NCBI RefSeq assembly: GCF_004216915.1
Contig: NZ_SGXD01000001.1
Span: 186,001-250,000, forward strand
Length of the DNA stretch: 64,000 nucleotides
From: Motilibacter rhizosphaerae
GTDB taxonomy: Bacteria > Actinomycetota > Actinomycetes > Motilibacterales > Motilibacteraceae
Reading direction: 5' to 3'
This document shows, piece after piece, positions 5,700-56,861 of this stretch (position 1 is its first letter; the number at the start of each line of letters is the position of its first letter). Made by a program: the position numbers and the translations under genes. The notes under the pieces are model-generated. The model was not told where the DNA came from. It was given only the letters and a program-made list of their open reading frames with translations, and made no database searches.

Positions 5700-5749
5700 C
5701 CCCGTGATCATGCACGTCCTGGGTGCCCGGGATGTGCATGATCACGGGG
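5700..5749. repeat. Palindromic CGTGATCATGCAC repeat pair between convergent genes
   Basis: Arms at 5700-5715 (CCCCGTGATCATGCAC) and 5734-5749 are exact reverse complements around an 18-nt loop. It lies between the convergent aminotransferase and rpsD genes, where it could act as a bidirectional terminator. It belongs to the repeat family also found at 10724-10933 and 56821-56861. Confidence 0.75.
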
Positions 5750-10708: not shown

Positions 10709-10723
10709 CTCCCGCTCGCCCCT

Positions 10724-10933
10724 CACGTGATCATGCAGATCTCGGGACCCGGGGGCCGGGCTCCCCGTGATCATGCAGTTCCTGGGGCTGGGGCCGCCGA
10801 CCCCCTCCCCGCGATCATGCAGATCCTGGAGCCGCGGCTCCCGAACCCCTCCTCGTGATCATGCAGATGGTGGGCCCAGGATGTGCATGATCACGGGCAG
10901 GTGTGGGTGGCCAGGACGTGCATGATCACGGGG
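10724..10933. repeat. Cluster of six CGTGATCATGCA-type repeats
   Basis: This 243-bp intergenic stretch (10709-10951) is built mostly of one repeat. Four copies lie on the + strand (near 10726, 10766, 10811 and 10854; core CGTGATCATGCAG followed by an ATCTCGGG/TTCCTGGGG-like tail). Two inverted copies (near 10875-10895 and 10911-10933; CCAGGACGTGCATGATCACG) face them. The copy at 10811 has GCGATCATGCA. The facing copies can form long hairpins and may terminate transcription of the chemoreceptor and selB genes, which converge here. Apart from these copies I see nothing in the gap. Confidence 0.85.
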
Positions 10934-10951: not shown

Positions 10952-12673
10952 TCAGGGGCGGCGTACGGTCCGGCTGCTGTCCGGCGCACGCTTGGTCCAG
11001 CCGCGGCCGTCCAGGTGCTCGAGCAGCGGGACGACGACGCGCCGGCTGCTGCCCAGGGCCGTCCGCGCCTGGCTGACCGTGAACGGCTGCGGGAGTCCCG
11101 CCAGGACGCGCATCGCCCGGGCCGGGCCGTCCGGCAGCAGCAGTACCTCGCCCGGCAGCCGCAGCAGACGACCCGCCGTCGCGGCTGCCGCGAGCTCGCG
11201 GGGACCGAGGCCCGCTGACCGCAGCTCGTCGAGGTCGGGGGCGTCGAAGGCGCTGTTGCGCAGGCGGTCCTCGATCCGGCGTACGGCCTCCTCCGCCGCC
11301 CCCAGCGACGGACGCCACCCCGCTGTCCGCACGCGCCCCGACCCGCGCTCCAGCCCGGTGGCCGCCGCGAGCGGCGCCACGACCTCGGGGTCCGGTAGTC
11401 CCAGTGCCGCAGCAGCGGCCCCCTCCGGCAGACCGGGCGACAACGGCTCGGCCCGCTGGTGCTCGAGGCAGGCCGCCCGCAGCGCCTCCTGCCACTGCGC
11501 CCACCGCGACCGCGCGACCAGCCAGCCGCCCGCCTCCACGCCGTCGGCCGCCAACGAGCCCGCGGGCACGAAACCCCTGCGCTCGAGCACGTCCTGCGGC
11601 TGCTCGGGCCCCTGGCGCAGCGCCTCCGCCCTGCGTCGCGCGTCCCCGCGTCGGCGGAGCCGCTCCGGCGCAGTGTCGAGCACCGACAGCCCGACGATGC
11701 GCCCGTCGCCGGGGTCGCGCAGCAGGAGCCGCTCTCCCACGGCGAGGGGCAGCGGGTGCGCGAGCGACAGGCGGGCGACGTCGCCGTCCAGCGGGCGTAC
11801 GCGCGTGGGCACCGCTGCCGTCCCCGCGTGCAGGGTGAGCTCCGCGGGCAGCCGGTCCCCCGGGTCGAGCCGGACATCGACGAGCGCGCTCGGGCGCCAG
11901 GAACCCGGCGACAGCAGCGCGTCCCCGCGCCCGACCTCGTCGAGCTCGACGCCGCGCAGGTTGACCGCCACCCGTGCGGTCGCGGTGACGTGCTCGTGCG
12001 GCTCGCCGAGGCTCTGCAGCCCGCGGACGCGCACGTCCCGTCCGCGGAGCGAGAGCACGTCGTCCACGCGCAGGGTTCCTGCTGCGAGGGTGCCGGTCAC
12101 CACGGTCCCGGCACCGCGTACGGTGAACGCCCGGTCCACCCACAACCGCACAGCAGCAGCAGGATCAGGTGCAGGCAGCCGCGCGACGAGCGCGTCCAGG
12201 GCGGAGCGCAGCTCGTCCAGGCCCGCACCCGTGGCGCCGCTGACCTGCACGGCCGGCACCTGCCCGAGCGACGAGGACGCGATGCGCCGCAGGGCTTCCT
12301 CCGTCGCAGGACCCGGGTCCGCCAGGTCCGATCTGGTGACCGCGAGCAGGCCGTGCCGCAGCCGCAGCGCCTCCACCGCCGCCAGGTGCTCGGTGGACTG
12401 CTGGCGCCAGCCCTCGTCCGCGGCGACGACGACGAGCACCGCGGGCGCCGGGCCGATGCCGGCGAGCATGTTGCCGAGGAACCGCGCATGCCCTGGTACG
12501 TCGACGAAGCTGATCGTCTCCCCGCTCGGCAGCCGCGTCCACGCGTAGCCGAGGTCGATCGTCATGCCGCGCCGCCGCTCCTCCGCCCAGCGGTCCGGCT
12601 CCATGCCCGTCAGCGCGCGGACGAGCGTGGACTTCCCGTGGTCGACGTGACCCGCGGTCGCGACGACGTGCAT
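10952..12673 (-). CDS. selB: Selenocysteine-specific elongation factor SelB
   Basis: A 573-residue GTPase that binds selenocysteyl-tRNA and the SECIS hairpin, delivering selenocysteine at UGA. G-domain motifs are AGHVDHGKST (residues 7-16), the switch region MTIDLGYAW, DVPGH and TRSD. EF-Tu-like domains II and III follow (FTVRGAGTVVTGTL), then C-terminal winged helices that bind SECIS RNA (about residues 390-573). The ATG at 12673 overlaps the selA stop (TGATG), so selA and selB are coupled. Partners in the window are tRNA-Sec (13987-14079), selD (26203) and the UGA-containing formate dehydrogenase (18398). Confidence 0.95.
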   Translation of the reverse strand: MHVVATAGHVDHGKSTLVRALTGMEPDRWAEERRRGMTIDLGYAWTRLPSGETISFVDVPGHARFLGNMLAGIGPAPAVLVVVAADEGWRQQSTEHLAAVEALRLRHGLLAVTRSDLADPGPATEEALRRIASSSLGQVPAVQVSGATGAGLDELRSALDALVARLPAPDPAAAVRLWVDRAFTVRGAGTVVTGTLAAGTLRVDDVLSLRGRDVRVRGLQSLGEPHEHVTATARVAVNLRGVELDEVGRGDALLSPGSWRPSALVDVRLDPGDRLPAELTLHAGTAAVPTRVRPLDGDVARLSLAHPLPLAVGERLLLRDPGDGRIVGLSVLDTAPERLRRRGDARRRAEALRQGPEQPQDVLERRGFVPAGSLAADGVEAGGWLVARSRWAQWQEALRAACLEHQRAEPLSPGLPEGAAAAALGLPDPEVVAPLAAATGLERGSGRVRTAGWRPSLGAAEEAVRRIEDRLRNSAFDAPDLDELRSAGLGPRELAAAATAGRLLRLPGEVLLLPDGPARAMRVLAGLPQPFTVSQARTALGSSRRVVVPLLEHLDGRGWTKRAPDSSRTVRRP

Positions 12674-13950
12674 CAGCTGAGCGCCGCGAGGACCGCTTGC
12701 AGGACCGCGGGATCGTGTGTCTCCGGCACGCACCGCAGGTCGACCAGGCAACGGTCGCGCTCGACGCGCGCCACCACGGGCGGGGAGCCGTGGCGCAGCC
12801 GCTCCGCGACAGCGGGGGGCAGCGCGACCGCCCAGCCCGGCAGCTCGACACCGGGGCCGCCGCCACCACCGACGGCGCCAGCACTCGGCACGACGGTGGC
12901 GCCCGGCACGGCCGCAGCCAACCGCTCCGAGCGCTCACGCAGCACCTCCGCAGGCAGCCGGAGTGCCTGCCACACCGGCACGTCTGCTGCCCGCAGCGTC
13001 GCCTCGAGCGCGGCGAGCGTCAGCTTGTCGACGCGCAGCGCGCGGGCGAGCGGGTGCCGCCGCAGCCGCTCGACCACGTCGGCCGGCCCGAGCAGCAGAC
13101 CCGCCTGCGGTCCACCCAGCAGCTTGTCCGCACTCGCCGTGACGACAGAAGCGCCTGCCAGCAGCGCAGTCCGCACGTCCGGCTCATCAGGGAGCAGCGG
13201 ATCCGGGGCGAGCAGGCCGCTGCCGACGTCGGCGACCACCGGCACGCCGAGCCCGGCGAGCTCGGCCACCTCGACGCTGCTGGTGAAGCCCTCCACCCGG
13301 AAGTTGCTGGGGTGCACCTTGAGGATGCAGCCCGTCTCCGGCCCGACCGCGTGCGCGTAGTCGCCCAGGTGCGTGCGGTTCGTCGTCCCGACCTCGCGCA
13401 GGCGCGCGCCGGTCGAGGCGATGAGGTCGGGCAGGCGGAACCCGTCGCCGATCTCCACCATCTCGCCCCTACTGACGACGACCTCGCGGCCGGCCGCGAG
13501 CGCGGTCGTCGCGAGGACCAGCGCGGCGGCACCGTTGTTCAGCACCAGAGCGGCTCCCGCAGCGGGGACTCTGTCGAGCAGCGCCTGCAGCGTCCCGCGC
13601 CCGCGCCGGGCCCGGGTGCCGGTCGCCAGGTCGAACTCCACGTCGGTGGAGCCCGCTGCCGTCGCCAGCGCCTCGACCGCCGCAGCAGACAGGGGCGCGC
13701 GGCCGAGGTTCGTGTGCAGCACGACACCCGTCGCGTTGATCACCTGCTGCAGCGAGGTCCCGGACACCGGCAGGGCGTCCGCGGTCGCCGCCGCGCAGGC
13801 CTCGGGCGCGAGCTCGCCACGGCGTACGCGCTCCTGCTGGCGGACGACCTCCGCCTTCACCGCCTCCCGCCCCAGCCGCTCGAGCGCCGGCGCGAGCAGC
13901 GGGTCGGCGAGCAGCGCGTCGGTCCTGGGTACGCGGCGGCGCGGGTCCAC
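12673..13950 (-). CDS. selA: L-seryl-tRNA(Sec) selenium transferase SelA
   Basis: A 425-residue PLP enzyme that converts seryl-tRNA(Sec) to selenocysteyl-tRNA(Sec) using selenophosphate. Visible features are the N-terminal domain (VPRTDALLADPLL), VINATGVVLHTNLGRAPLS, HPSNFRVEGF and the PLP lysine K276 in ASADKLLGGPQAG. The stop overlaps the selB ATG. Two in-frame GTGs are possible (13956 and 13950). A TAGGTT hexamer at 13958-13963 is 7 nt from the second and only 1 nt from the first, so the second is chosen as a leaderless start. Confidence 0.95.
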   Translation of the reverse strand: MDPRRRVPRTDALLADPLLAPALERLGREAVKAEVVRQQERVRRGELAPEACAAATADALPVSGTSLQQVINATGVVLHTNLGRAPLSAAAVEALATAAGSTDVEFDLATGTRARRGRGTLQALLDRVPAAGAALVLNNGAAALVLATTALAAGREVVVSRGEMVEIGDGFRLPDLIASTGARLREVGTTNRTHLGDYAHAVGPETGCILKVHPSNFRVEGFTSSVEVAELAGLGVPVVADVGSGLLAPDPLLPDEPDVRTALLAGASVVTASADKLLGGPQAGLLLGPADVVERLRRHPLARALRVDKLTLAALEATLRAADVPVWQALRLPAEVLRERSERLAAAVPGATVVPSAGAVGGGGGPGVELPGWAVALPPAVAERLRHGSPPVVARVERDRCLVDLRCVPETHDPAVLQAVLAALS

Positions 13951-13957
13951 GAGCACG

Positions 13958-13963: not shown

Positions 13964-13986
13964 CCCGCGCCGCCCGCGACCGGCAG

Positions 13987-14079
13987 CGGAGGCGGACGGG
14001 AATCGAACCCGCCAGGACGAGGTGCTCGCCCTCACCGGTGTTGAAGACCGGGGCGCCCACCAGGAACGCGTACGCCTCC
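13987..14079 (-). tRNA. selC: tRNA-Sec (anticodon UCA)
   Basis: On the minus strand a 93-nt RNA begins GGAGGCGTACGCG and ends at CGCCTCC plus a G discriminator; CCA is not encoded. The acceptor arms GGAGGCG/CGCCTCC pair perfectly. The six-bp D stem GCGTTC/GGGCGC is typical of tRNA-Sec. The anticodon stem CCGGT/ACCGG encloses the loop CTTCAAC with anticodon TCA (14042-14044), there is a long variable arm, and the T arm is GCGGG-TTCGATT-CCCGT. It reads UGA as selenocysteine together with SelA and SelB, encoded just downstream on the same strand. It lies 10 bp after the stop of the oxidoreductase gene. Confidence 0.93.
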
Positions 14080-15233: not shown

Positions 15234-18200
15234 TCAGGTACGCGCCGCCGCCCGCAGGCCCGGTGCCCACGACGAGGTGTCGATGCCGGTGACGAGGAGC
15301 TCGGCGAGCTCGGCGGCCGGCGCGGGCCGCGCGAACAGGTAGCCCTGGCCCATCGGGCAGCCGAGCGCGCGCAGCCGCAGCGGCTGCTCCGGCGTCTCGA
15401 TGCCCTCGGCGATGACCTCCATGCCGAGGCTGCGGCCCATCGCCGTGATCGCGCGGATGATCTCACGGCCGCGGGCGAGGTGCAGCCGGCCCACGAACGA
15501 GCGGTCGATCTTCAGCGCGTCGATGGGGAAGCTGTGCAGCGCCTCGAGGGAGGAGTAGCCCGTCCCGAAGTCGTCGATGTGGAGGTTGACCCCGCGGCCG
15601 TGGAGCTCGCCGAGCAGCGAGGCGGCCTCGGCGGCGTTGTCCATGACGACGCCCTCGGTGATCTCGAGGGAGAGCCGCGAGGCGACCGCGCCCGGCAGGG
15701 CCAGCTCGGCGTCGAGCACGTCGAGCAGGTCCCGGTGCCAGAACTCCCGGTGCGACAGGTTGACCGAGAGCGAGAGGTCGGAGTCGGCGACGCCTGCGGC
15801 ACGCCAGGCCAGCAGCTGGCGCCAGCTCTCGCGCAGCACGAGCTGGCCGAGCGGCACGATGAGCCCGGTCTCCTCGGCGACCGGCAGGAAGTCCGCCGGG
15901 CTGACGAGCCGCCCCGCGGAGTTCCGCCAGCGGACCAGCGCCTCCAGCGCCGCGATCCGCCCCGTGGAGAGGCGCACGATCGGCTGGTAGTGGACCTCGA
16001 TGCCCGACCCGTCGCCGGAGCCCTCGATCGCGCGCCGCAGCTCGCCCTCGAGGCGCAGCCGGTCGACGGCGCGGTCGTGCATGGCGACCTGGAAGACCGC
16101 GGTGGAGCCGCGCTCGCGGGCCTTCGCGGCGTACATCGCGATGTCGGCGTCGCGGACGATCTGCTCCGCCCCGGTGTAGGCGGGCGCGCCGTGCGCGATG
16201 CCGATCGCGGCCGTGGCGACCACCGGGTGCCCCTGGACGTCGTACGGCCGGGCGAGCTCGGCCTGCAGGCGCTCGACCACGGCCTCGACGACCTCGGGCT
16301 CGGCGTCGCGCAGCAGCACCGCGAACTCGTCGCCGCCGAAGCGCGCCGCGACGTCCCCGGCGCGGATGCAGGACAGCAGCCGCGAGGCCACCTGCGTCAG
16401 CAGGTCGTCGCCGGCGAGGTGGCCGAGCCCGTCGTTGACGAGCTTGAAGCCGTCGAGGTCGAGGAAGAGCATCGCGAACGGCTCGTCGCCGGCCCGCCCC
16501 ACGGCCTCCTGCAGCTGCTCGTTGAAGTACGCCCGGTTGGGCAGCCCGGTCAGCTCGTCGAACAGCGCGCGACGGCGCAGCTGCTCCTCGAGGCGGACGC
16601 GCTCGGCCTGCGACTCGCGCTGCTCGAGCGCGACGGCGAGCAGCGCCGACCACTGGAAGTACGTCTCGCGCCCCGTCGCCGTCGCGAGCTCGGGCTTGCC
16701 GACGAGCGCGAGCAGCCCCCAGTCGCGCGTCGCGGTCCGCACCGGCAGCACGAAGGCGAGCTCGCCGGCCTCCGGGTCGACGAGGTCGAGCAGCGTGCGC
16801 GGCGGGAACTCCTCCACGCGCTGGAGCCCGCGCGCCTCGGTGCCGAGGCTGCCGAACGACTGGACGAGGTGGAGCGTGTGCCCGACCTCGGCCGGCGCGC
16901 TCCACAGCCCGACGCAGCCGGCCCGGCACCGCGTACGCGCCAGCCAGCGCAGGGACGAGGGGTCGTCGTGGGGAGCGCGGAGCAGCTCCATGCTGATGTC
17001 GTACTCGCTGCGCAGCTCGTCGCGCAGGTGGCGGGTGGCCTCGTGCGCGTCGCTGGTGCGGGCGTCGGCGAGGCACATGGCGAGCTCGCGCACGAGCTCG
17101 TCGGCGATGTCGCGCGGGCAGCCGCGGTCGCGCAGCTCGGCCTGGATCTCGCGCAGCAGCCCGGTCATCGTCTCGCGGCGGGGGCGCAGCGCGAAGACGT
17201 GCCGGACCGCCTGCTCGACCTGGGCGGGCTCGAGCGGGGCGGCGCCCTCGCTGGCGACGGCGAGCGCCGTCGTGAGCGCGGTGCCCGCGGAGCCGAGCTC
17301 GGCGTGCGCGGGGCTGCCCGGGGCGACCTCGGGGAACAGCGCCGCCAGCCGGTCGGCGAAGGCCAGCCCGACGCTGCCGCCGCGACCCACGAGCGCGAGG
17401 CCGTCGCAGCCGCACGACGCCCGGGGGACGTAGGACGTGGGCACCCGGTGGGTCACCGGCTCCAGCGGGCCCTCGAGCCCGGCGAGGGCCAGCCGCGCGG
17501 CGAGCTCGCCGAGCCGCTCGAACGGCTGCCCCACGGAGGCCAGCGCGGGGCTCTGCGCGCCGGCCCGGGCGGTGTCGTCGAAGCCGACGACCGCCATCTC
17601 CAGGGGCAGGCGGAGGCCCGCCTCCTGCAGCGCACGGCTCAGCCCGATCGCCGTGTTGTCGTTGGCGCAGACGACGGCGGTGGCCGGGAGCCCGTCGGCG
17701 AGCAGCGCGCGCCCGGCGGCCTCGCCGCCCCAGTCCATGAGGTTGTCGACCTCGTAGCGCAGGCGCGGGTCGGGCTCGATGCCGTGCTCGCGGAGGACCT
17801 GCTCGTACGCGGCGTGCCGCTCGCGCGTGTCCTGGTTCTCGAGGCTCCCGACCCACGCGATCCGGCGGTGGCCGTGGCGGAGCAGGTGCTCGACGACCTC
17901 CCGGCCGCCGGTCGTGTTGTCGGCGAGCACGCTGGGGAAGCCCGCCACCTCGCGGGAGACCATGACGACGGGCTTGCCGGTGGCGCGCACCGCCGCCAGG
18001 TGCTCGTCGTCCAGGGCGAAGGTCAGCGACACGACCGCGTCGTAGCGGTCGGACGAGAGCCCGCCCGGCACGTCGGGGAAGTCCTTGAACTCGTCCCCCA
18101 CCGCGGGGTGCAGCGTCTGCACCGCCAGCAGCCGGGCGCCGCGCGCAGCGCACTCGCGCTGGAGGCCGCGCAGGATCACGCCGAAGAAGGGCCCGGCGAC

Positions 18201-18239
18201 GAGCGGCGTGAAGAACGCGACGGTGGGTCTGCGGCCCAT
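15234..18239 (-). CDS. LacI-type ligand-binding domain fused to GGDEF and EAL domains
   Basis: A 1001-residue protein with no signal peptide or membrane segment. Residues 1-265 form a LacI/periplasmic-binding-protein fold without an HTH (RPTVAFFTPLVAGPFFG; HGHRRIAWVG; VVCANDNTAIGLSRAL; VVGFDDTA), followed by a SCGC motif near residue 275. A helical/GAF-like region runs to about 530. A GGDEF domain follows (FDELTGLPNR; GGDEF at about 635), then an EAL domain (EAL at about 766; DDFGTGYSS; EGIET). It probably senses a small intracellular ligand and makes or breaks down cyclic di-GMP. Both catalytic signatures look intact. ATG at 18239 has GAGGAGGG upstream. A paralogue of the same architecture is at 46348. 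Confidence 0.88.
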   Translation of the reverse strand: MGRRPTVAFFTPLVAGPFFGVILRGLQRECAARGARLLAVQTLHPAVGDEFKDFPDVPGGLSSDRYDAVVSLTFALDDEHLAAVRATGKPVVMVSREVAGFPSVLADNTTGGREVVEHLLRHGHRRIAWVGSLENQDTRERHAAYEQVLREHGIEPDPRLRYEVDNLMDWGGEAAGRALLADGLPATAVVCANDNTAIGLSRALQEAGLRLPLEMAVVGFDDTARAGAQSPALASVGQPFERLGELAARLALAGLEGPLEPVTHRVPTSYVPRASCGCDGLALVGRGGSVGLAFADRLAALFPEVAPGSPAHAELGSAGTALTTALAVASEGAAPLEPAQVEQAVRHVFALRPRRETMTGLLREIQAELRDRGCPRDIADELVRELAMCLADARTSDAHEATRHLRDELRSEYDISMELLRAPHDDPSSLRWLARTRCRAGCVGLWSAPAEVGHTLHLVQSFGSLGTEARGLQRVEEFPPRTLLDLVDPEAGELAFVLPVRTATRDWGLLALVGKPELATATGRETYFQWSALLAVALEQRESQAERVRLEEQLRRRALFDELTGLPNRAYFNEQLQEAVGRAGDEPFAMLFLDLDGFKLVNDGLGHLAGDDLLTQVASRLLSCIRAGDVAARFGGDEFAVLLRDAEPEVVEAVVERLQAELARPYDVQGHPVVATAAIGIAHGAPAYTGAEQIVRDADIAMYAAKARERGSTAVFQVAMHDRAVDRLRLEGELRRAIEGSGDGSGIEVHYQPIVRLSTGRIAALEALVRWRNSAGRLVSPADFLPVAEETGLIVPLGQLVLRESWRQLLAWRAAGVADSDLSLSVNLSHREFWHRDLLDVLDAELALPGAVASRLSLEITEGVVMDNAAEAASLLGELHGRGVNLHIDDFGTGYSSLEALHSFPIDALKIDRSFVGRLHLARGREIIRAITAMGRSLGMEVIAEGIETPEQPLRLRALGCPMGQGYLFARPAPAAELAELLVTGIDTSSWAPGLRAAART

Positions 18240-18397
18240 GCCCCGGTCCCTCCTCACCCGCTCGTGCGGCGGCGCCGTGCCGCCCGCTCCCTCTCCATCG
18301 GCAGGGCGGGCCCGAGCCTGACACGTACGGCGCGCCCGGGTGGGCCGTTCGCGCGTCCCGGTGTTTGACCTGCGCAGGAGAGTGGCAGAGTGGGCCC

Positions 18398-21300
18398 GTG
18401 GGCGTGCGCACCTTCCTCGAGGGCTGGCCGGTCTACCGGCAGCTGACCGGTGACGACCCCCTGGGCCGCGGTGCCGCCGCGAAGTCCGCCGGCTCGAAGG
18501 CGCTCGTCGCCCGGACCGAGACCGCGGACCGCGTCGTGAAGTCCATCTGCCCCTACTGCGCGGTCGGCTGCGGGCAGCGCGTCTACGTCAAGGACGAGCG
18601 GGTCGTCCAGATCGAGGGCGACCCGGACAGCCCGATCTCCCGCGGGCGGCTCTGCCCCAAGGGCTCCGCCTCGCTGGGCCTGGTCAACGGCCCGCTGCGC
18701 GAGACCAGGGTGAAGTACCGGAGGCCGTACTCCACCCAGTGGGAGGAGCTCGACCTCGACACGGCGATGGACATGATCACCGACCGGGTGATCGAGGCCC
18801 GCCGCAAGGGGTGGCAAGACAAGGACGAGCAGGGCCGCCGGCTGCGCCGCACGATGGGCATCGCGAGCCTCGGCGGCGCCACGCTGGACAACGAGGAGAA
18901 CTACCTCATCAAGAAGCTCTTCACCGCGATGGGTGCCATCCAGGTGGAGAACCAGGCGCGCATTTGACACAGCGCCACGGTGCCCGGTCTGGGTGCCTCG
19001 TTCGGACGCGGAGGCGCGACCACCTCGCTGCAGGACCTGGCGAACGCCGACTGCATCGTCATCCAGGGCTCGAACATGGCCGAGTGCCACCCGGTCGGGT
19101 TCCAGTGGGTGATGGAGGCGAAGGCGCGCGGCGCCAAGGTCGTGCACATCGACCCCCGCTTCACCCGGACGAGCGCGCAGGCGGACACCTACGTCCCCAT
19201 CCGCTCGGGCAGTGACATCGTCCTGCTCGGCGCGGTGATCAAGCAGGTCCTCGAGCGGGACCTCTGGTTTGAGGACTACGTCCGCGCGTACACCAACGCG
19301 GCGTGGATCGTGTCCGAGGACTTCGAGGACACCGAGGACCTCGACGGGCTGTTCTCCGGCTTTGACCAGGAGAAGCGCGCCTACGACACGACCTCGTGGC
19401 AGTACGCCGGCCAGGAGGAGGCCTCAGGGGACGAGTCGCACGAGGGCGACCGCGCGAGCAGCTCCGAGAAGGGCCAGCGGACGGGCGCGGCCGGGGCGAG
19501 CATCGAGACCCACGAGGTCGAGAAGGACGAGACGCTGCAGCACCCGCACTGCGTCTTCCAGATCCTCAAGCGCCACTTCGCGCGCTACACCCCGGAGATG
19601 GTCGAGGAGATGTGCGGCATCAGCCGCGACCTCTTCGACGAGATCGTGGACGCGTTCACGCAGAACAGCGGGCGGGAGCGCACCACGGCGCTGGTCTACA
19701 GCGTCGGCTGGACCCAGCGCGGCACCGGCGTGCAGTACATCCGCACCGGCGCGATCCTCCAGCTGCTGCTGGGCAACATGGGGCGCCCGGGCGGCGGCAT
19801 CATGGCACTGCGCGGCCACGCGAGCATCCAGGGGTCGACCGACATCCCCACGCTCTACAACCTGCTGCCGGGCTACCTCGAGATGCCGCACGTCGACGAG
19901 CACGACACGCTGCAGGACTACATCGAGAAGATCAAGGGCTCCAACCAGAAGGGCTTCTGGGGCAAGGCCGACACCTACGTCGTCAGCCTGCTGAAGGCCT
20001 ACTTCGGCGACAACGCGACCGCGGACAACGACTACTGCTTCGACTACCTGCCCCGGATCAACGGCGACCACGGCACCTACAGCCAGGTCATGGACATGAT
20101 CGAGGGCGGGAAGATCTTCGGCTACTTCCTGCTCGGGCAGAACCCCGCGGTCGGCTCGGCCAACGGCCGGGCCCAGCGGCTCGGGCTGGCCAACCTCGAC
20201 TGGCTGGTCGTCCGCGACCTCGTGATGATCGAGAGCGCGACCTTCTGGCAGAACGCCCCGGAGATCGAGACGGGCGAGATCGTGGCGGAGGAGTGCCGCA
20301 CGGAGGTCTTCTTCATGCCGGCGGCGACGCACGTGGAGAAGAAGGGCACCTTCACCCAGACCCAGCGGCTGCTGCAGTGGCGCGAGCAGGCGACCGAGCC
20401 GCCGGGCGACTGCACGAGCGACCTGTGGTTCATCTACCACCTGGGCCGGAAGATGCGCGAGAAGCTCGCCGCGTCCACCGACGAGCGCGACCGCCCGCTG
20501 CTGGAGGTCGCGTGGGACTACCCGCTCGAGGGCGAGAAGGGCGACCCCGACGGCGAGGCCGTGCTCAAGGAGATCAACGGCTACGACCTCACGACGGGCA
20601 AGACCCTGTCCGCCTTCACCGAGCTGAAGGCCGACGGCTCCACGTCCGCGGGCTGCTGGATCTACACCGGTGTCTACGCCGACGGGGTCAACCAGGCCGC
20701 GCGCCGCAAGCCGGCGAAGGAGCAGAACTGGCTCGGCCTGGAGTGGGGCTGGGCGTGGCCGGCCAACCGCCGCGTGCTCTACAACCGCGCCTCCGCCGAC
20801 CCCGACGGCAAGCCGTGGAGCGAGCGCAAGGCGCTGGTGTGGTGGGACGAGGACGCCCAGGAGTGGACAGGGCACGACGTGCCCGACTTCCAGAAGACCA
20901 AGTCGCCGCACTTCCGGCCGGAGCCCGGGGCCAGCGGTCCCGACGCCCTCGCCGGCGACGACGCCTTCATCATGCAGGCGGACGGCAAGGCCTGGCTGTA
21001 CGCGCCGAAGGGCGCCGTCGACGGGCCGCTCCCCACGCACTACGAGCCGGGCGAGTCGCCCGTGCGCAACGGGCTCTACACCCAGCAGCAGAACCCCACG
21101 CGCGAGGTCTACACGGCGCCGTTCAACGAGATGCACCCGTCCCCGCCCGAGCCCGGGTCCTCGCTGTTCCCGTACGTCTGGACCACGTCCCGGCTCACCG
21201 AGCACCACACCGCCGGCGGCATGAGCCGCTACCTGCCCTACCTCGCGGAGCTCCAGCCGGAGCTCTTCATGGAGGTCTCGCCGGAGCTGGCGGCGGAGCG

Positions 21301-21730
21301 GGGGCTCCGGCACCTGGAGTTCGCGCACGTCATCACCGCCCGCGCGGTGGTCGAGGCGCGGGTGCTGGTGACCGACAGGCTGACGCCGCTGCGCGTGCAG
21401 GGGCAGGTCATCCACCAGGTCTGGCTCCCCTACCACTGGGGGCCGGGCGGCCTCACGACCGGTGACGTCGTCAACGACCTGCCGCACCTCACGCTCGACC
21501 CCAACGTGCACATCCAGGAGTGCAAGGCGGGGACGTGCGACGTGCGCCCCGGCCGCCGCCCGCGCGGACCCGCGGTGCTGGACCTCATGGCGAGCTACCG
21601 CAGCGAGGCCGGCGTGACCGAGGAGACCGGGACCGTCGCGATGACGACGACGCTGATCGCGCACCGCGGTGACGCGCACGAGGCGCAGGCGGCCGTCGAC
21701 GCCGCAGCAGCCCACGGCCAGGAGGGCTGA
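18398..21730 (+). CDS. Formate dehydrogenase catalytic subunit, selenoprotein (UGA = Sec190)
   Basis: A 1110-residue molybdopterin enzyme read through an in-frame TGA at 18965-18967. It oxidises formate to CO2. The N-terminal [4Fe-4S] cysteines are C51, C54, C58 and C86. The family motif continues across the TGA (VENQARI-U-HSATVPGLGASFGRGG), with Sec at residue 190 where relatives have Sec or Cys. The bis-MGD domains follow, with the C-terminal dinucleotide-binding domain after about residue 900. No Tat signal, so it is cytoplasmic. A hydrophilic insert is present near residues 335-370. GTG at 18398 chosen: a CAGAGT hexamer lies 6 nt upstream. Beta and membrane subunits follow directly. Confidence 0.95.
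18968..18997 (+). promoter_or_regulatory. Bacterial SECIS element directing selenocysteine insertion
   Basis: After the UGA, 18 nt lead to the loop GGUCU (18986-18990), closed by a 7-bp stem GGTGCCC (18979-18985) and GGGTGCC (18991-18997) with two G-U pairs. As I recall it, the E. coli fdhF SECIS has the same GGUCU loop sequence at the same 18-nt distance. SelB should bind here and deliver Sec-tRNA. Confidence 0.88.
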
Positions 21731-21731
21731 G

Positions 21732-22811
21732 ATGGTCTCGAGCAACAGCCTGTACGGACCGCTGCAGGACCCGGCGGCCGACGCGGGCTACGAAGAACCG
21801 CCGAAGCGGCTGGGGTTCTTCACCGACACGAGCATCTGCATCGGGTGCAAGGCGTGCGAGGTGGCCTGCAAGGAGTGGAACGCCGTCCCCGAGGACGGGC
21901 TGAACCTCCTCGGCTACTCCTACGACAACACCGGCGGCCTCGGGGCCGACTCGTGGCGGGCGGTGCACTTCATCGAGCAGCCGCTGCCGATCGGGACGCG
22001 GACGCCGCCCTTCGAGCACACGCCGACCGGCCCCTCCGGCGTGGGTCCGACCTTCGACGTGGTGGCAGCGGGTTCTCGCGCAGCCGACGCCTCCCGGCTC
22101 GGCACCGCGGGGCCGGGGTCCGTCCCCGTCGCCGAGACCGCGGCGCAGGCTGCCCGCGAAGCCGGTGTGGACACGGCGTTCCTCGGCATGCCGGGGTCCC
22201 AGCCTCCCGGCAACGAGACGGGCCTCGAGGAGCGGACCGACTTCCGCTGGCTCATGATGAGCAACGTCTGCAAGCACTGCACCCACGCGGCCTGCCTCGA
22301 CGTCTGCCCCACCGGGTCGCTGTTCCGCACGGAGTTCGGCACCGTCGTCGTGCAGCAGGACATCTGCAACGGCTGCGGCTACTGCGTCTCCGCGTGCCCC
22401 TACGGCGTCATCGACAAGCGCGAGGACGACGGCCGGGCGTGGAAGTGCACGCTCTGCTACGACCGCCTCGGCGCGGACATGACCCCGGCGTGCGCGAAGG
22501 CATGCCCCACCGAGTCGATCCAGTTCGGCGAGCTCGAGGAGCTGCGCGAGCGGGCCGAGGCGCGGGTCGAGCAGCTGCACGCCAACGGCGTCCCCGAGGC
22601 ACGGCTCTACGGCAACGACCCGGACGACGGGGTCGGCGGCGACGGCGCGTTCTTCCTCCTGCTCGACGAGCCGGAGGTCTACGGCCTGCCGCCGGACCCG
22701 GTCGTCACCACCCGGGACCTGCCGGACATGTGGAAGCACGCCGGTGCCGCCGCCGCGCTCATGGTCCTCGGCGCAGCCGCGTCCTTCCTGCGCACGGGCC
22801 GGCGCCGGTGA
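21732..22811 (+). CDS. Formate dehydrogenase iron-sulfur (beta) subunit
   Basis: A 359-residue protein carrying four [4Fe-4S] cluster motifs. The first is CIGCKACEVACK (C36, C39, C42, C46) and the second CKHCTHAACLDVCP (C180, C183, C188, C192). CNGCGYCVSACP and CTLCYDRLGADMTPACAKACP follow. One hydrophobic helix at the C-terminus (about residues 333-352) can anchor it in the membrane. It transfers electrons from the catalytic subunit to the membrane subunit. A flexible Ala/Pro/Gly-rich linker at about residues 86-168 separates the first two motifs. ATG at 21732 with GGAGGG just upstream; the stop overlaps the next start. Confidence 0.93.
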   Translation: MVSSNSLYGPLQDPAADAGYEEPPKRLGFFTDTSICIGCKACEVACKEWNAVPEDGLNLLGYSYDNTGGLGADSWRAVHFIEQPLPIGTRTPPFEHTPTGPSGVGPTFDVVAAGSRAADASRLGTAGPGSVPVAETAAQAAREAGVDTAFLGMPGSQPPGNETGLEERTDFRWLMMSNVCKHCTHAACLDVCPTGSLFRTEFGTVVVQQDICNGCGYCVSACPYGVIDKREDDGRAWKCTLCYDRLGADMTPACAKACPTESIQFGELEELRERAEARVEQLHANGVPEARLYGNDPDDGVGGDGAFFLLLDEPEVYGLPPDPVVTTRDLPDMWKHAGAAAALMVLGAAASFLRTGRRR

Positions 22812-23947
22812 GCGTCCCCGGAGAGCCCGAGGTCGGCGCCACCCCGCTGCGCGCGGACGGCCGGTCCAACGACGAGGGGGCCGGTCGGCGCCCGCACGGA
22901 GACCAGGCCGCGCTGTCGTGGTCGCAGGGGCGCGCCGAGCCCGGCCGCGGCACGGGGCGGCGGCGCAAGCAGCGCGACGAGCACCAGATGGTGCCCGACG
23001 TCGAGTTCCAGTCGTACTACGGCCGCGCCGTGCTCAAGCCCCCGGTGTGGACGCACGACATCGCGTTCTACCTGTTCACCGGTGGGCTGGCTGCCGGCTC
23101 CTCGCTGCTCGCTGCGGGAGCGGACCTGACCGGCGCGCCCGCACTGCGCCGCGGGGCCCGGGCGACCTCGATGGGCGCGCTGCTCGCCAGCACGTACTTC
23201 CTCATCAACGACCTGGGCGTGAAGACGCGCTTCCACCACATGCTGCGCGTCGCCAAGCCGACCTCGCCGATGTCGGTGGGCACGTGGATCCTCGCCGCGT
23301 ACGGCCCGCTGGCCGGCGCCGCCGCGACCGCCGAGCTGGCCCCGCTGCTGCCTGAGCGCGGCGTGCTCGGCCTGGTGCGCAAGCTCGCCCCGTGGGGCGG
23401 GCGCGCCGCGGGGCTCGGCGCGGCTGCGGTCGCGCCGGCGCTCGCGACGTACACCGCCGTCCTCTTCGCCGACACCGCGGTCCCGAGCTGGCACGAGGGC
23501 TACCGCGAGCTGCCGTTCCTGTTCTCCGGCTCGGCGCTCGCCGCGGGTGCCGGGGCCGGGCTCGTGCTCGCCCCGCCGACGCAGACCGCGTCGGCGCGCC
23601 GCCTGGCGGTCGCCGGCGCCGCCGTGGAGCTCGCCGCCGGGCAGCGCCTCGAGAAGGGCCACGGGCTGCTGAGCGAGCCGTACGAGACCGGCCGCCCCGG
23701 CACGCAGCTCAAGGCCGCCCGGGCCCTCACCGCCGTCGGTGCGGTCGGGGCCGCGCTGAGCCGCCGGTCGCGGCTGCTGTCGATCGCGTCCGGCAGCTGC
23801 CTGCTCGCCGGGTCGCTGCTCACGCGCTTCGGCGTCTTCGAGGCGGGCGTGATGTCCTCCAAGGACCCGAAGTACGTCGTGGTGCCCCAGCGCGAGCGGC
23901 TCGAGCGGCGCGCTGACGGCGGCGCGAAGACCAACGCGCCGGGATAG
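22808..23947 (+). CDS. NrfD/PsrC-type membrane subunit of formate dehydrogenase
   Basis: A 379-residue protein with a charged N-terminal region of about 60 residues followed by about eight hydrophobic segments, as in NrfD/PsrC quinone-reactive subunits. Family features include SYYGRAVLKPPVWTHDIAFYLFTGGLAAGSS and the closing VFEAGVMSSKDPKYVVVPQR. It replaces the cytochrome b gamma subunit and probably passes electrons to menaquinone. GTG at 22808 overlaps the beta subunit stop. The long open frame upstream of it is a shadow of the beta subunit gene. Confidence 0.88.
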   Translation: MSVPGEPEVGATPLRADGRSNDEGAGRRPHGDQAALSWSQGRAEPGRGTGRRRKQRDEHQMVPDVEFQSYYGRAVLKPPVWTHDIAFYLFTGGLAAGSSLLAAGADLTGAPALRRGARATSMGALLASTYFLINDLGVKTRFHHMLRVAKPTSPMSVGTWILAAYGPLAGAAATAELAPLLPERGVLGLVRKLAPWGGRAAGLGAAAVAPALATYTAVLFADTAVPSWHEGYRELPFLFSGSALAAGAGAGLVLAPPTQTASARRLAVAGAAVELAAGQRLEKGHGLLSEPYETGRPGTQLKAARALTAVGAVGAALSRRSRLLSIASGSCLLAGSLLTRFGVFEAGVMSSKDPKYVVVPQRERLERRADGGAKTNAPG

Positions 23948-25322: not shown

Positions 25323-26222
25323 ATGCCGTTCAAGACACCGGACCAGATAGCTGTGGCGGCGGTGGCCTCGGGCGAGAAGAAGGCCCTGCTCACCGTGGAC
25401 CGGATGCTCGTCGGGGGCTTCCTGGCCGGGGCGTACATCGCCTTCGGCGGCCTGCTCGCGATCGTGGTCACCAGCGGGCTCAAGGCCGAGACGTGGGGCG
25501 GGCTCATCACGCTGTTCAACGGCGCGGTGTTCAGCCTCGGCCTCATCCTCGTGGTGCTGGCCGGCGCGGAGCTGCTCACCGGCAACATGGCGCTGGTCCC
25601 GCTGGCCCTGCTGCAGAAGCGCATCCCGGTCGCGCGCCTCGGCATCAACTTCGGCGTCGTGCTCGTCGCGAACCTCCTGGGCTCGCTGTTCGTCGCCTAC
25701 TTCCTGGCCCTCAAGACCGGCGTCATCGGCACGCCCTCGTCGCCGGCGGCGAGCACGGCGCACGCGGCGTACGAGCGGCTGGCTGCGACGGCGACCGGCA
25801 AGGCGGTCACGGAGTCCAACTGGCAGATCTTCCTGCGAGCCATGGGGTGCAACTGGCTCGTCTGCCTGGCGGTCTGGCTCGCGATGGCCAGCGACGAGAT
25901 CAGCGGCAAGATCCTCGGGATCTTCTTCCCCATCATGGCCTTCGTCGCCCTCGGCTTCGACCACGTCGTCGCCAACATGTTCTTCCTGCCGGCGGCGCAC
26001 TGGGCCGGCGTCCCGGGCATCACGTGGGGGCAGATCCTCGACAACTGGGTGTTCGCCGGGATCGGGAACCTCGTGGGAGCAGCGGTCTTCGTCGCCGGCG
26101 CCTACTGGTGGGTCTACCTGCGCGGCACCGAGGGCGCCGTGCAGAGCGCGGGGTCGGACCCCAGCGGCACCGCGGGTGCCCCCGCGGCGAAGGAGGCGCC
26201 GGTCAGGCGAGCGCGACGGTGA
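25323..26222 (+). CDS. Formate/nitrite transporter family channel (FocA-like)
   Basis: A 299-residue membrane protein of the FNT family, with six expected helices and family motifs ITLFNGAVFSLGLILVVLAGAELLTGN, NWLVCLAVW and FDHVVANMFF. FNT proteins carry formate, nitrite or hydrosulfide. Position beside the formate dehydrogenase operon, selD and fdhD points to formate. ATG at 25323 has a GGAG sequence 10 nt upstream. Its 3' end overlaps the convergent selD gene by 20 bp. Confidence 0.9.
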   Translation: MPFKTPDQIAVAAVASGEKKALLTVDRMLVGGFLAGAYIAFGGLLAIVVTSGLKAETWGGLITLFNGAVFSLGLILVVLAGAELLTGNMALVPLALLQKRIPVARLGINFGVVLVANLLGSLFVAYFLALKTGVIGTPSSPAASTAHAAYERLAATATGKAVTESNWQIFLRAMGCNWLVCLAVWLAMASDEISGKILGIFFPIMAFVALGFDHVVANMFFLPAAHWAGVPGITWGQILDNWVFAGIGNLVGAAVFVAGAYWWVYLRGTEGAVQSAGSDPSGTAGAPAAKEAPVRRARR

Positions 26223-27204
26223 CGCCCGCGCGGGCGGGGACCAGCTCCCCCACCACGGGGTAGCCCAGGACCTCGCCCGCGACGAGCAGGCCGCCGGAGG
26301 TCTGCGCGTCGGCGAGGAGGAGCTGCTCGTCCTCGCCGACGCTCCCGGCGTCCAGGAACGGCTGCACCCACGCGAGGTTGCGGCGCGTACCCCCGGACAC
26401 GTAGCCGTCGCGGAGCGCGTCCCGTGCGCCGTCGAGGTAGGGCACGGCGGCGGTGTCGACCACCGCGGTGACGCCCGACGCGCGAGCGAGCTTGTGCAGG
26501 TGGCCGAGCAGCCCGAAGCCGGTGACGTCCGTGGCGCAGACCGCTCCGGCGGCGACAGCCGCGACCGAAGCCGCGGCGTTGAGGGTCGTCATCGCCTCGA
26601 CCGCCTGGGCGAAGCGCTCCCCCGTCGACTTGTGGCGCGAGTTGAGCACCCCGATGCCGAGCGGCTTGGTGAGGGTGAGCGGGACGCCCGCGACGCCCTT
26701 GTCGTTGCGCAGCAGGCGGTCCGGGTCGACCAGACCCGTCACGGCCATGCCGTACTTCGGCTCCGGGTCGTCGACGCTGTGCCCGCCGCCGACGTGGGTC
26801 CCCGCAGCGCTCGCGACGTCGAGCCCACCGCGCAGCACCTCGGCGGCGAGCTCGAACGGCAGCAGGTCGCGGGGCCAGCTGAGCAGGTTGACCGCGACGA
26901 CGGGGCGCCCGCCCATGGCGTAGACGTCGGAGAGCGCATTGGTCGCGGCGATCCGCCCCCAGTCGTACGCGTCGTCCACCACGGGCGTGAAGAAGTCCGC
27001 GGTGACGACGAGGCCCTGGCCCGGCCCGATCCGCACGACAGCGGCGTCGTCGCCCGTGTCGAGGCCGACGACGAGCTCGTCGGGGAACGTGCCGCTGGGC
27101 CGGAGGCCGGCGACGACGGACTCGAGCTCGCCCGGGGGGATCTTGCAGGCGCAGCCGCCGCCGTGCGCGTAGCCCGTGAGCCGGCGCTCCTCGGTGGCGG
27201 TCAC
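26203..27204 (-). CDS. selD: Selenide, water dikinase (selenophosphate synthetase)
   Basis: A 333-residue enzyme making selenophosphate from selenide and ATP for SelA. The active-site loop YAHGGGCACK has cysteine at residue 18 (no selenocysteine) and the essential lysine at 21. LDTGDDAAVVR, TADFFTPVVDD and TDVTGFGLLGHL are typical. GTG at 27204 overlaps the stop of the upstream YqeY gene (GTGA), so the two are coupled; the open frame further upstream is a shadow. Completes the Sec set with selA, selB and selC. Confidence 0.95.
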   Translation of the reverse strand: MTATEERRLTGYAHGGGCACKIPPGELESVVAGLRPSGTFPDELVVGLDTGDDAAVVRIGPGQGLVVTADFFTPVVDDAYDWGRIAATNALSDVYAMGGRPVVAVNLLSWPRDLLPFELAAEVLRGGLDVASAAGTHVGGGHSVDDPEPKYGMAVTGLVDPDRLLRNDKGVAGVPLTLTKPLGIGVLNSRHKSTGERFAQAVEAMTTLNAAASVAAVAAGAVCATDVTGFGLLGHLHKLARASGVTAVVDTAAVPYLDGARDALRDGYVSGGTRRNLAWVQPFLDAGSVGEDEQLLLADAQTSGGLLVAGEVLGYPVVGELVPARAGVTVALA

Positions 27205-27653
27205 GACGCCAGCTGCCTGCGCACCTCGGCCGAGACGCGGCCGCCGTCGGCGCGCCCGGTGGTCCGCGGCGTCACGGCCTTCATGACCTGCCCCATCGCG
27301 CCCATGCCGGAGACGCCCAGCTCGGCGATCGCCTCGCGCACGAGGCCCGCCACCTCGTCGTCGCTGAGCGGTGTCGGCAGGTAGCGCGCCAGCACCCCGC
27401 CCTCGGCCCGCTCGCGCTCGGCGAGCTCGGTGCGGGACGCGGCGTCGAACGCCTCGGCCGCCTCGCGCCGCTTCTTGGCCTCGCGGGTGAGGACCTGCAG
27501 CACCTCGGCGTCGGAGAGCTCGCGCGCCGTCCTGCCGGAGACCGCCTCGGTCTGCACCGCGGTGAGGGTCATCCGCAGCGTCGCCGTGGTGAGCTCGTCG
27601 CGGGCGCGCATCGCGGCGGTGAGGTCCTCCCGCAGCTGGTGCTCGAGACTCAT
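27201..27653 (-). CDS. GatB/YqeY domain protein
   Basis: A 150-residue YqeY-type protein (SLEHQLREDLTAAMRARDELTTATLRM; KKRREAAEAF; LPTPLSDDEVAGLVREAI; GQVMKAV), related to the C-terminal tRNA-binding tail of GatB. Family members are thought to bind tRNA; the function is not established. ATG at 27653 with a GGGAGGG site nearby. It is coupled to selD and divergent from fdhD, so it may share regulation with the selenium genes. Confidence 0.85.
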   Translation of the reverse strand: MSLEHQLREDLTAAMRARDELTTATLRMTLTAVQTEAVSGRTARELSDAEVLQVLTREAKKRREAAEAFDAASRTELAERERAEGGVLARYLPTPLSDDEVAGLVREAIAELGVSGMGAMGQVMKAVTPRTTGRADGGRVSAEVRRQLAS

Positions 27654-27689: not shown

Positions 27690-28514
27690 ATGTCCCGCGT
27701 GACGGCACGCCGACCGGTGACCCGGCTCGGCGGAGCGACCCCCCTGCAGCGTCCTGACACCCTCGTGGTCGAGGAGCCGCTCGAGCTGCGCGTCGGCGGC
27801 CGCGCCCTGGCCGTCACCATGCGCACGCCCGGCGACGACATGGACCTCGCCGGCGGGTTCCTCGTCAGCGAGGGCGTGGTCTCGGCACCGGAGCAGCTGC
27901 GGGCCATGCGCTACTGCGCCGGTGTCGACGACGACGGGCAGAACAACTACAACGTCCTCGACCTCGACCTCGCCCCCGGTGTCGCGCCGCCGGACCCCTC
28001 GGTCGAGCGCAACTTCTACACGACCTCCTCGTGCGGCGTCTGCGGCAAGGCCAGCCTCGACGCCGTCCGCACGTCGTCGGCGTTCTCCGTCGCCGAGGAC
28101 CCGCTGCGGGTGGCGGCGTCCCTGCTCGGGACGCTCCCCGACCGGCTGCGCGAGGCGCAGAAGGTCTTCGACCGCACCGGCGGGCTGCACGCGGCCGGGC
28201 TGTTCTCCGCGGACGGGACGCTGCACTGCGTACGCGAGGACGTGGGGCGGCACAACGCCGTCGACAAGGTCGTGGGCTGGGCCCTGCGCGAGGGCCTGCT
28301 GCCGCTGCGCGAGACCGTGCTCGTCGTCAGCGGTCGGGCCTCCTTCGAGCTGGCGCAGAAGGCGCTGATGGCGGGCATCCCGATGCTGGCTGCGGTGAGC
28401 GCGCCGTCGTCGCTGGCCGTGGACCTGGCGGTCGAGTCGGGCATGACGCTGGCCGGCTTCGTGCGCGGCGCCACCATGAACGTGTACGCCGGGGCTGAGC
28501 GCGTCACGACCTGA
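27690..28514 (+). CDS. fdhD: Formate dehydrogenase accessory sulfurtransferase FdhD
   Basis: A 274-residue protein. FdhD moves sulfur from cysteine desulfurase to the molybdenum cofactor of formate dehydrogenase, a step needed for activity. The catalytic pair is in the CGVCGK motif (C115 and C118). Other conserved parts are [41 protein letters not shown] and [13 protein letters not shown]. It serves the selenoprotein formate dehydrogenase encoded at 18398. Confidence 0.95.
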
Positions 28515-56820: not shown

Positions 56821-56861
56821 CCGTGATCATCCCCTCCCTCGTGATCATGCACGTCCTGGGG
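56821..56861. repeat. CGTGATCATGCACGTCC repeat copy in a divergent promoter region
   Basis: A truncated copy (CCGTGATCAT, 56821-56830) and a full copy (56840-56861, CGTGATCATGCACGTCCTGG) of the family seen at 5700 and 10724. It occupies almost the whole gap between the amidotransferase and exonuclease genes, which start on either side of it, so here it lies in promoter rather than terminator context. Confidence 0.75.

Follow-up and report, generated by a model that had tools for sequence, protein, structure and literature searches.

The results suggested that the frame at 18398-21730 (forward strand) in the 64-kb stretch of the Motilibacter rhizosphaerae genome examined here (hereafter the window) is almost certainly a single gene, fdhA (fdnG), encoding an FdnG-type formate dehydrogenase alpha subunit with a SECIS-directed selenocysteine (Sec) at residue 190. 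Only one internal TGA (codon 190, 18965-18967) is present in this frame, which ends with a terminal TGA at 21728-21730. It is very likely that Sec is inserted at the internal UGA, as supported by the full-length similarity of the protein, conservation of the UGA, a covarying hairpin that is lost in Cys homologs, and the sel genes in the window. The initial annotation had placed both the frame and the TGA correctly. It had also stated that the TGA splits the gene into two open frames and that family similarity crosses it; mechanical ORF finding reproduced the split, and the read-through protein matched the NCBIfam family NF041513 (formate_DH_Act) over residues 6-1069. Since gene callers split fdhA, the enzyme would be overlooked in routine annotation of this genome.

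The NF041513 match was full length and scored 1955 bits (cut-off 1400), and only one copy above this cut-off was found in the M. rhizosphaerae genome. The read-through protein also matched TIGR01553 (formate dehydrogenase-N alpha; 946 bits), and the Molybdop_Fe4S4, Molybdopterin and Molydop_binding (dinucleotide-binding) domains could all be identified. Residue 190 was found to align with position 158 of 1h0h_A, a formate dehydrogenase of solved structure; this position is printed as X, and we take it to be the selenocysteine of the Desulfovibrio gigas enzyme. The in-frame UGA thus falls at the metal-ligand position of the family.

Downstream of the UGA, a hairpin was located at 18979-18997 (forward strand), in which GGUGCCC (18979-18985) pairs with GGGUGCC (18991-18997) around a GGUCU loop (18986-18990). 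Its stem has seven pairs, two of them G-U; the hairpin begins 11 nt and the loop 18 nt after the UGA, so that the loop, its distance and the two G-U pairs described in the initial annotation were recovered at these positions. Of the checks proposed there, the SECIS search returned a match to Rfam SECIS_3 (RF01989) at the site (18962-19020, forward strand; 33.1 bits, with E 8.9e-6 when 401 bases were searched), but it did not reach the gathering score of 63 and the region was not filed as a member. In single-sequence folding, the energies of hairpin pieces of 33-46 nt were not above those of shuffles (z 0.04 to 0.48), and a different fold won over the hairpin in 80- and 140-nt contexts. Folding energy is uninformative for the hairpin in such GC-rich sequence.

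Comparison of relatives, rather than folding energy, indicates that the hairpin is conserved beyond chance. The comparison set comprised 80 relatives found on genome contigs, additional loci taken from 396 phylum genomes and from 98 genomes of a single genus, and divergent members. One stem pair joins the third bases of a Val codon and a Gly codon and is free of protein constraint. All 82 distinct close 42-nt sequences had a standard pair at this place, compared with a mean of 61.8 and a maximum of 71 in 20,000 shuffles, which ignore relatedness. The pair was also standard in each of the 94 distinct close 51-nt sequences (CG 52, TA 27, TG 10, GT 3 and GC 2), and ranked first among 903 third-position pairs for excess pairing when all TGA rows were considered, a ranking that, like the slid registers below, corrects for kinship in part. 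In addition, five sequences had G-C in place of C-G as the loop-closing pair. After thinning to 31 sequences, pairing stood at 94.9% and the covariation score was 0.376 (shuffled mean 0.170), every slid register scored far lower, and unconstrained RNAalifold returned the same six inner pairs.

Apical loops in 141 close loci were GGUCU (126), AGUCU (12) or AGUUU (3), all of which contain the G in a small apical loop that is described for bacterial SECIS elements (PMC1088965). Judged by covariation, a conserved stem-loop lies directly 3' of the UGA. We also looked for relatives that carry the same UGA and lack the hairpin, and the Sec reading held among close relatives. In divergent members, pairing in the register of the window dropped to about 54-64% at several pairs, which indicates hairpins of another register or loop; because of this variation, we claim covariation for close relatives only. 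A separate observation concerns one divergent homolog, which has TGT (Cys) at the Sec site and retains GGTTCCCGGCCTGGCCGGT, a hairpin-like sequence that may be left over from a SECIS.

The suggested comparison of Sec and Cys proteins agreed with the Sec reading: close UGA-bearing relatives had the hairpin, whereas three close Cys homologs (L016, L017 and L124) no longer have the GGUCU loop or several of the stem pairs. Two of the three corresponding genomes were checked for tRNA-Sec, and neither has a convincing one (no match in G038 and only a weak match, E 7.6e-5, in G361). A tRNA-Sec match above the cut-off was found in many UGA-bearing genomes. Some fragmented genomes with the UGA (for example, G013, G042 and G017) had no strong match, which we assume, without proof, to be due to draft gaps.

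The Sec machinery is complete within the window, which encodes tRNA-Sec, SelA, SelB and SelD. On the reverse strand, selC (13986-14079; ARAGORN; RF01852, 72.8 bits) specifies a tRNA-Sec with anticodon UCA, and is accompanied by genes for selenocysteine synthase (selA, 12673-13956; TIGR00474, 423 bits) and the Sec-specific elongation factor (selB, 10952-12673; TIGR00475, 274 bits), the latter with a C-terminal winged helix (SelB-wing_3, PF09107). Selenophosphate synthase is encoded by selD (26203-27207, reverse strand; TIGR00476, 377 bits). The possibility that selD has its own UGA was checked and ruled out, as it is a Cys form (motif GGGCACK). When the whole genome was scanned with a SECIS model that we constructed, no second element of the fdhA kind emerged (next best E 3.0), and hence no further selenoprotein with an fdhA-type SECIS was found. 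It is most improbable that the UGA is instead decoded without selenium by a near-cognate tRNA, for example one for Trp or Cys. Such decoding would likewise give an in-frame UGA flanked by regions under selection, but it would leave unexplained why a covarying hairpin accompanies the UGA and is lost with Cys codons, and why sel genes adjoin.

The codon itself is also conserved. The aligned codon was TGA in 170 of the 181 loci compared (the window itself and its copy L009 are counted here), and the loci without TGA were mostly distant paralogs. Within the same family, each of the four relatives sampled carried the gene with one internal TGA, although it was broken across contigs in one of them. 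Some distant relatives seemed to have a second in-frame stop, which turned out to be the normal gene end in the three cases examined. In comparisons with four Kineococcus and three other relatives, dN was clearly lower than dS, and the values upstream of the UGA resembled those downstream. For one relative (L045), dN and dS were 0.147 and 0.47 upstream, 0.121 and 0.48 just downstream, and 0.156 and 0.48 further on. The low dN relative to dS downstream of the UGA implies that the 3' part of fdhA is translated and constrained. TGA is only one base from TGC or TGT, and a few homologs do have TGC or TGT, which might point to a sequencing error or a recent nonsense mutation in what is really a Cys gene or a pseudogene; however, the same TGA is shared by more than 100 loci across many genera and the downstream constraint persists, and conservation in independent genomes already refutes this explanation, which we regard as having a negligible chance of being correct. 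Mechanical ORF calling does yield both a 189-residue N-terminal piece and a second frame from GTG 18980, but that these are two separate proteins is hardly credible, as the break would interrupt the catalytic domain at the metal-ligand residue and sever the Fe4S4 motif from the remaining molybdopterin domain. As a side observation, the match in one relative (G475, contig C94, 74055-75257) was interrupted at the Sec site (profile positions 185-187); this copy is probably decaying, since the length separating the pieces is not divisible by three.

On the basis of the Sec reading, SelB with Sec-tRNA(UCA) would bind the hairpin that starts 11 nt past UGA 18965 and deliver selenocysteine at the metal-ligand residue, and translation would run on to the real stop at 21728. 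The product would be the alpha subunit of an FdnG-type formate dehydrogenase that is membrane-associated and contains molybdenum or tungsten. Further genes of interest lie downstream on the forward strand. The iron-sulfur beta subunit gene fdhB (21732-22811; Fer4_11; TIGR01582, 182 bits, below the cut-off of 334.7) has its ATG at 21732, right after the fdhA stop, and is followed by genes for an NrfD-family membrane subunit (22988-23947; PF03916, 50 bits), a formate/nitrite family transporter (25323-26222; PF01226, 246 bits) and the formate dehydrogenase accessory sulfurtransferase FdhD (27690-28514; NF001943, 393 bits). In an active enzyme, electrons from formate may pass to FdhB, then to the NrfD-type subunit and probably to quinone.

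Some other features of the window were also observed. A YqeY-like gene (27201-27653, reverse strand) shares 7 bases with the start of selD, which lies on the same strand. Between tRNA-Sec and fdhA, the reverse strand encodes a protein (15234-18257) with a LacI-type periplasmic-binding domain and GGDEF and EAL domains, possibly a ligand-sensing cyclic-di-GMP enzyme. A dispersed repeat, GTGATCATGCAGNTC, occurs at 10721-10932 and also at 5704-5745 and 56841-56855. With at most one mismatch, 314 copies were counted in the genome (0 for the reversed control), 1 in a genome of the same genus and 29 in one genome of the same family. The copies are clustered, about 44 nt apart in the window, and include inverted ones; the repeat has the appearance of a REP-like element that expanded recently.

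Few bacterial selenoproteins are as widespread as FdhA, which is often encoded beside sel genes (PMC1794560; PMC5029168). Sec-containing formate dehydrogenases beside sel genes have already been described in other actinobacteria and are not new; the M. rhizosphaerae gene is one more member of a known group. Streptomyces incarnatus NRRL8089 has a Sec-containing formate dehydrogenase-O with selABCD (PMC4498112), and shares with the present case a SECIS directly after the in-frame UGA, a selABCD cluster near the gene and a GC-rich actinobacterial genome, although it belongs to another genus and the likeness noted for the SECIS is one of position. In Corynebacterium aurimucosum, a UGA likewise occurs in fdnG and sel genes adjoin (PMC2830990), again in a different genus. 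A further parallel is FDH1 of Actinomycetospora chiangmaiensis, in which formate removal is selenium-dependent and the Sec formate dehydrogenase was detected by proteomics (PMC7176365). FdhA, FdhB, FdhC and a permease are listed there with SelA and SelB, Sec is in FdhA and the subunit sizes are similar. The selenium dependence and the protein detection are experimental results in A. chiangmaiensis, which has three Sec systems (PMC7176365), whereas we found one in M. rhizosphaerae, read from sequence.

With regard to Escherichia coli fdhF, the loop and spacing given in the initial annotation proved right, as GGTCT lies at the same distance in that gene (the sequence used was verified at 100% identity in annotated fdhF). 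The likeness to an fdhF-type SECIS held for loop and spacing but not for the upper stem: the E. coli element has a bulged U (U17) in the upper stem as well as a lower stem, whereas the M. rhizosphaerae hairpin has an uninterrupted stem of 6-7 bp and a 5-nt loop, without a bulge or a conserved lower stem, and the stem is gapless in close relatives as well. The bulged U is important in the E. coli SECIS. This unbulged continuous stem without a conserved lower stem is the sole departure of note, and a mild one. We tentatively consider, as a minority view, that actinobacterial formate dehydrogenases might use a shortened SECIS (unbulged 6-7 bp stem, RGUYU loop and no lower stem) recognized by SelB in a manner somewhat unlike that of E. 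coli SelB. The synonymous covarying stem positions define a compact actinobacterial SECIS, and a model based on them could be better suited to searching GC-rich genomes than the general one from Rfam.
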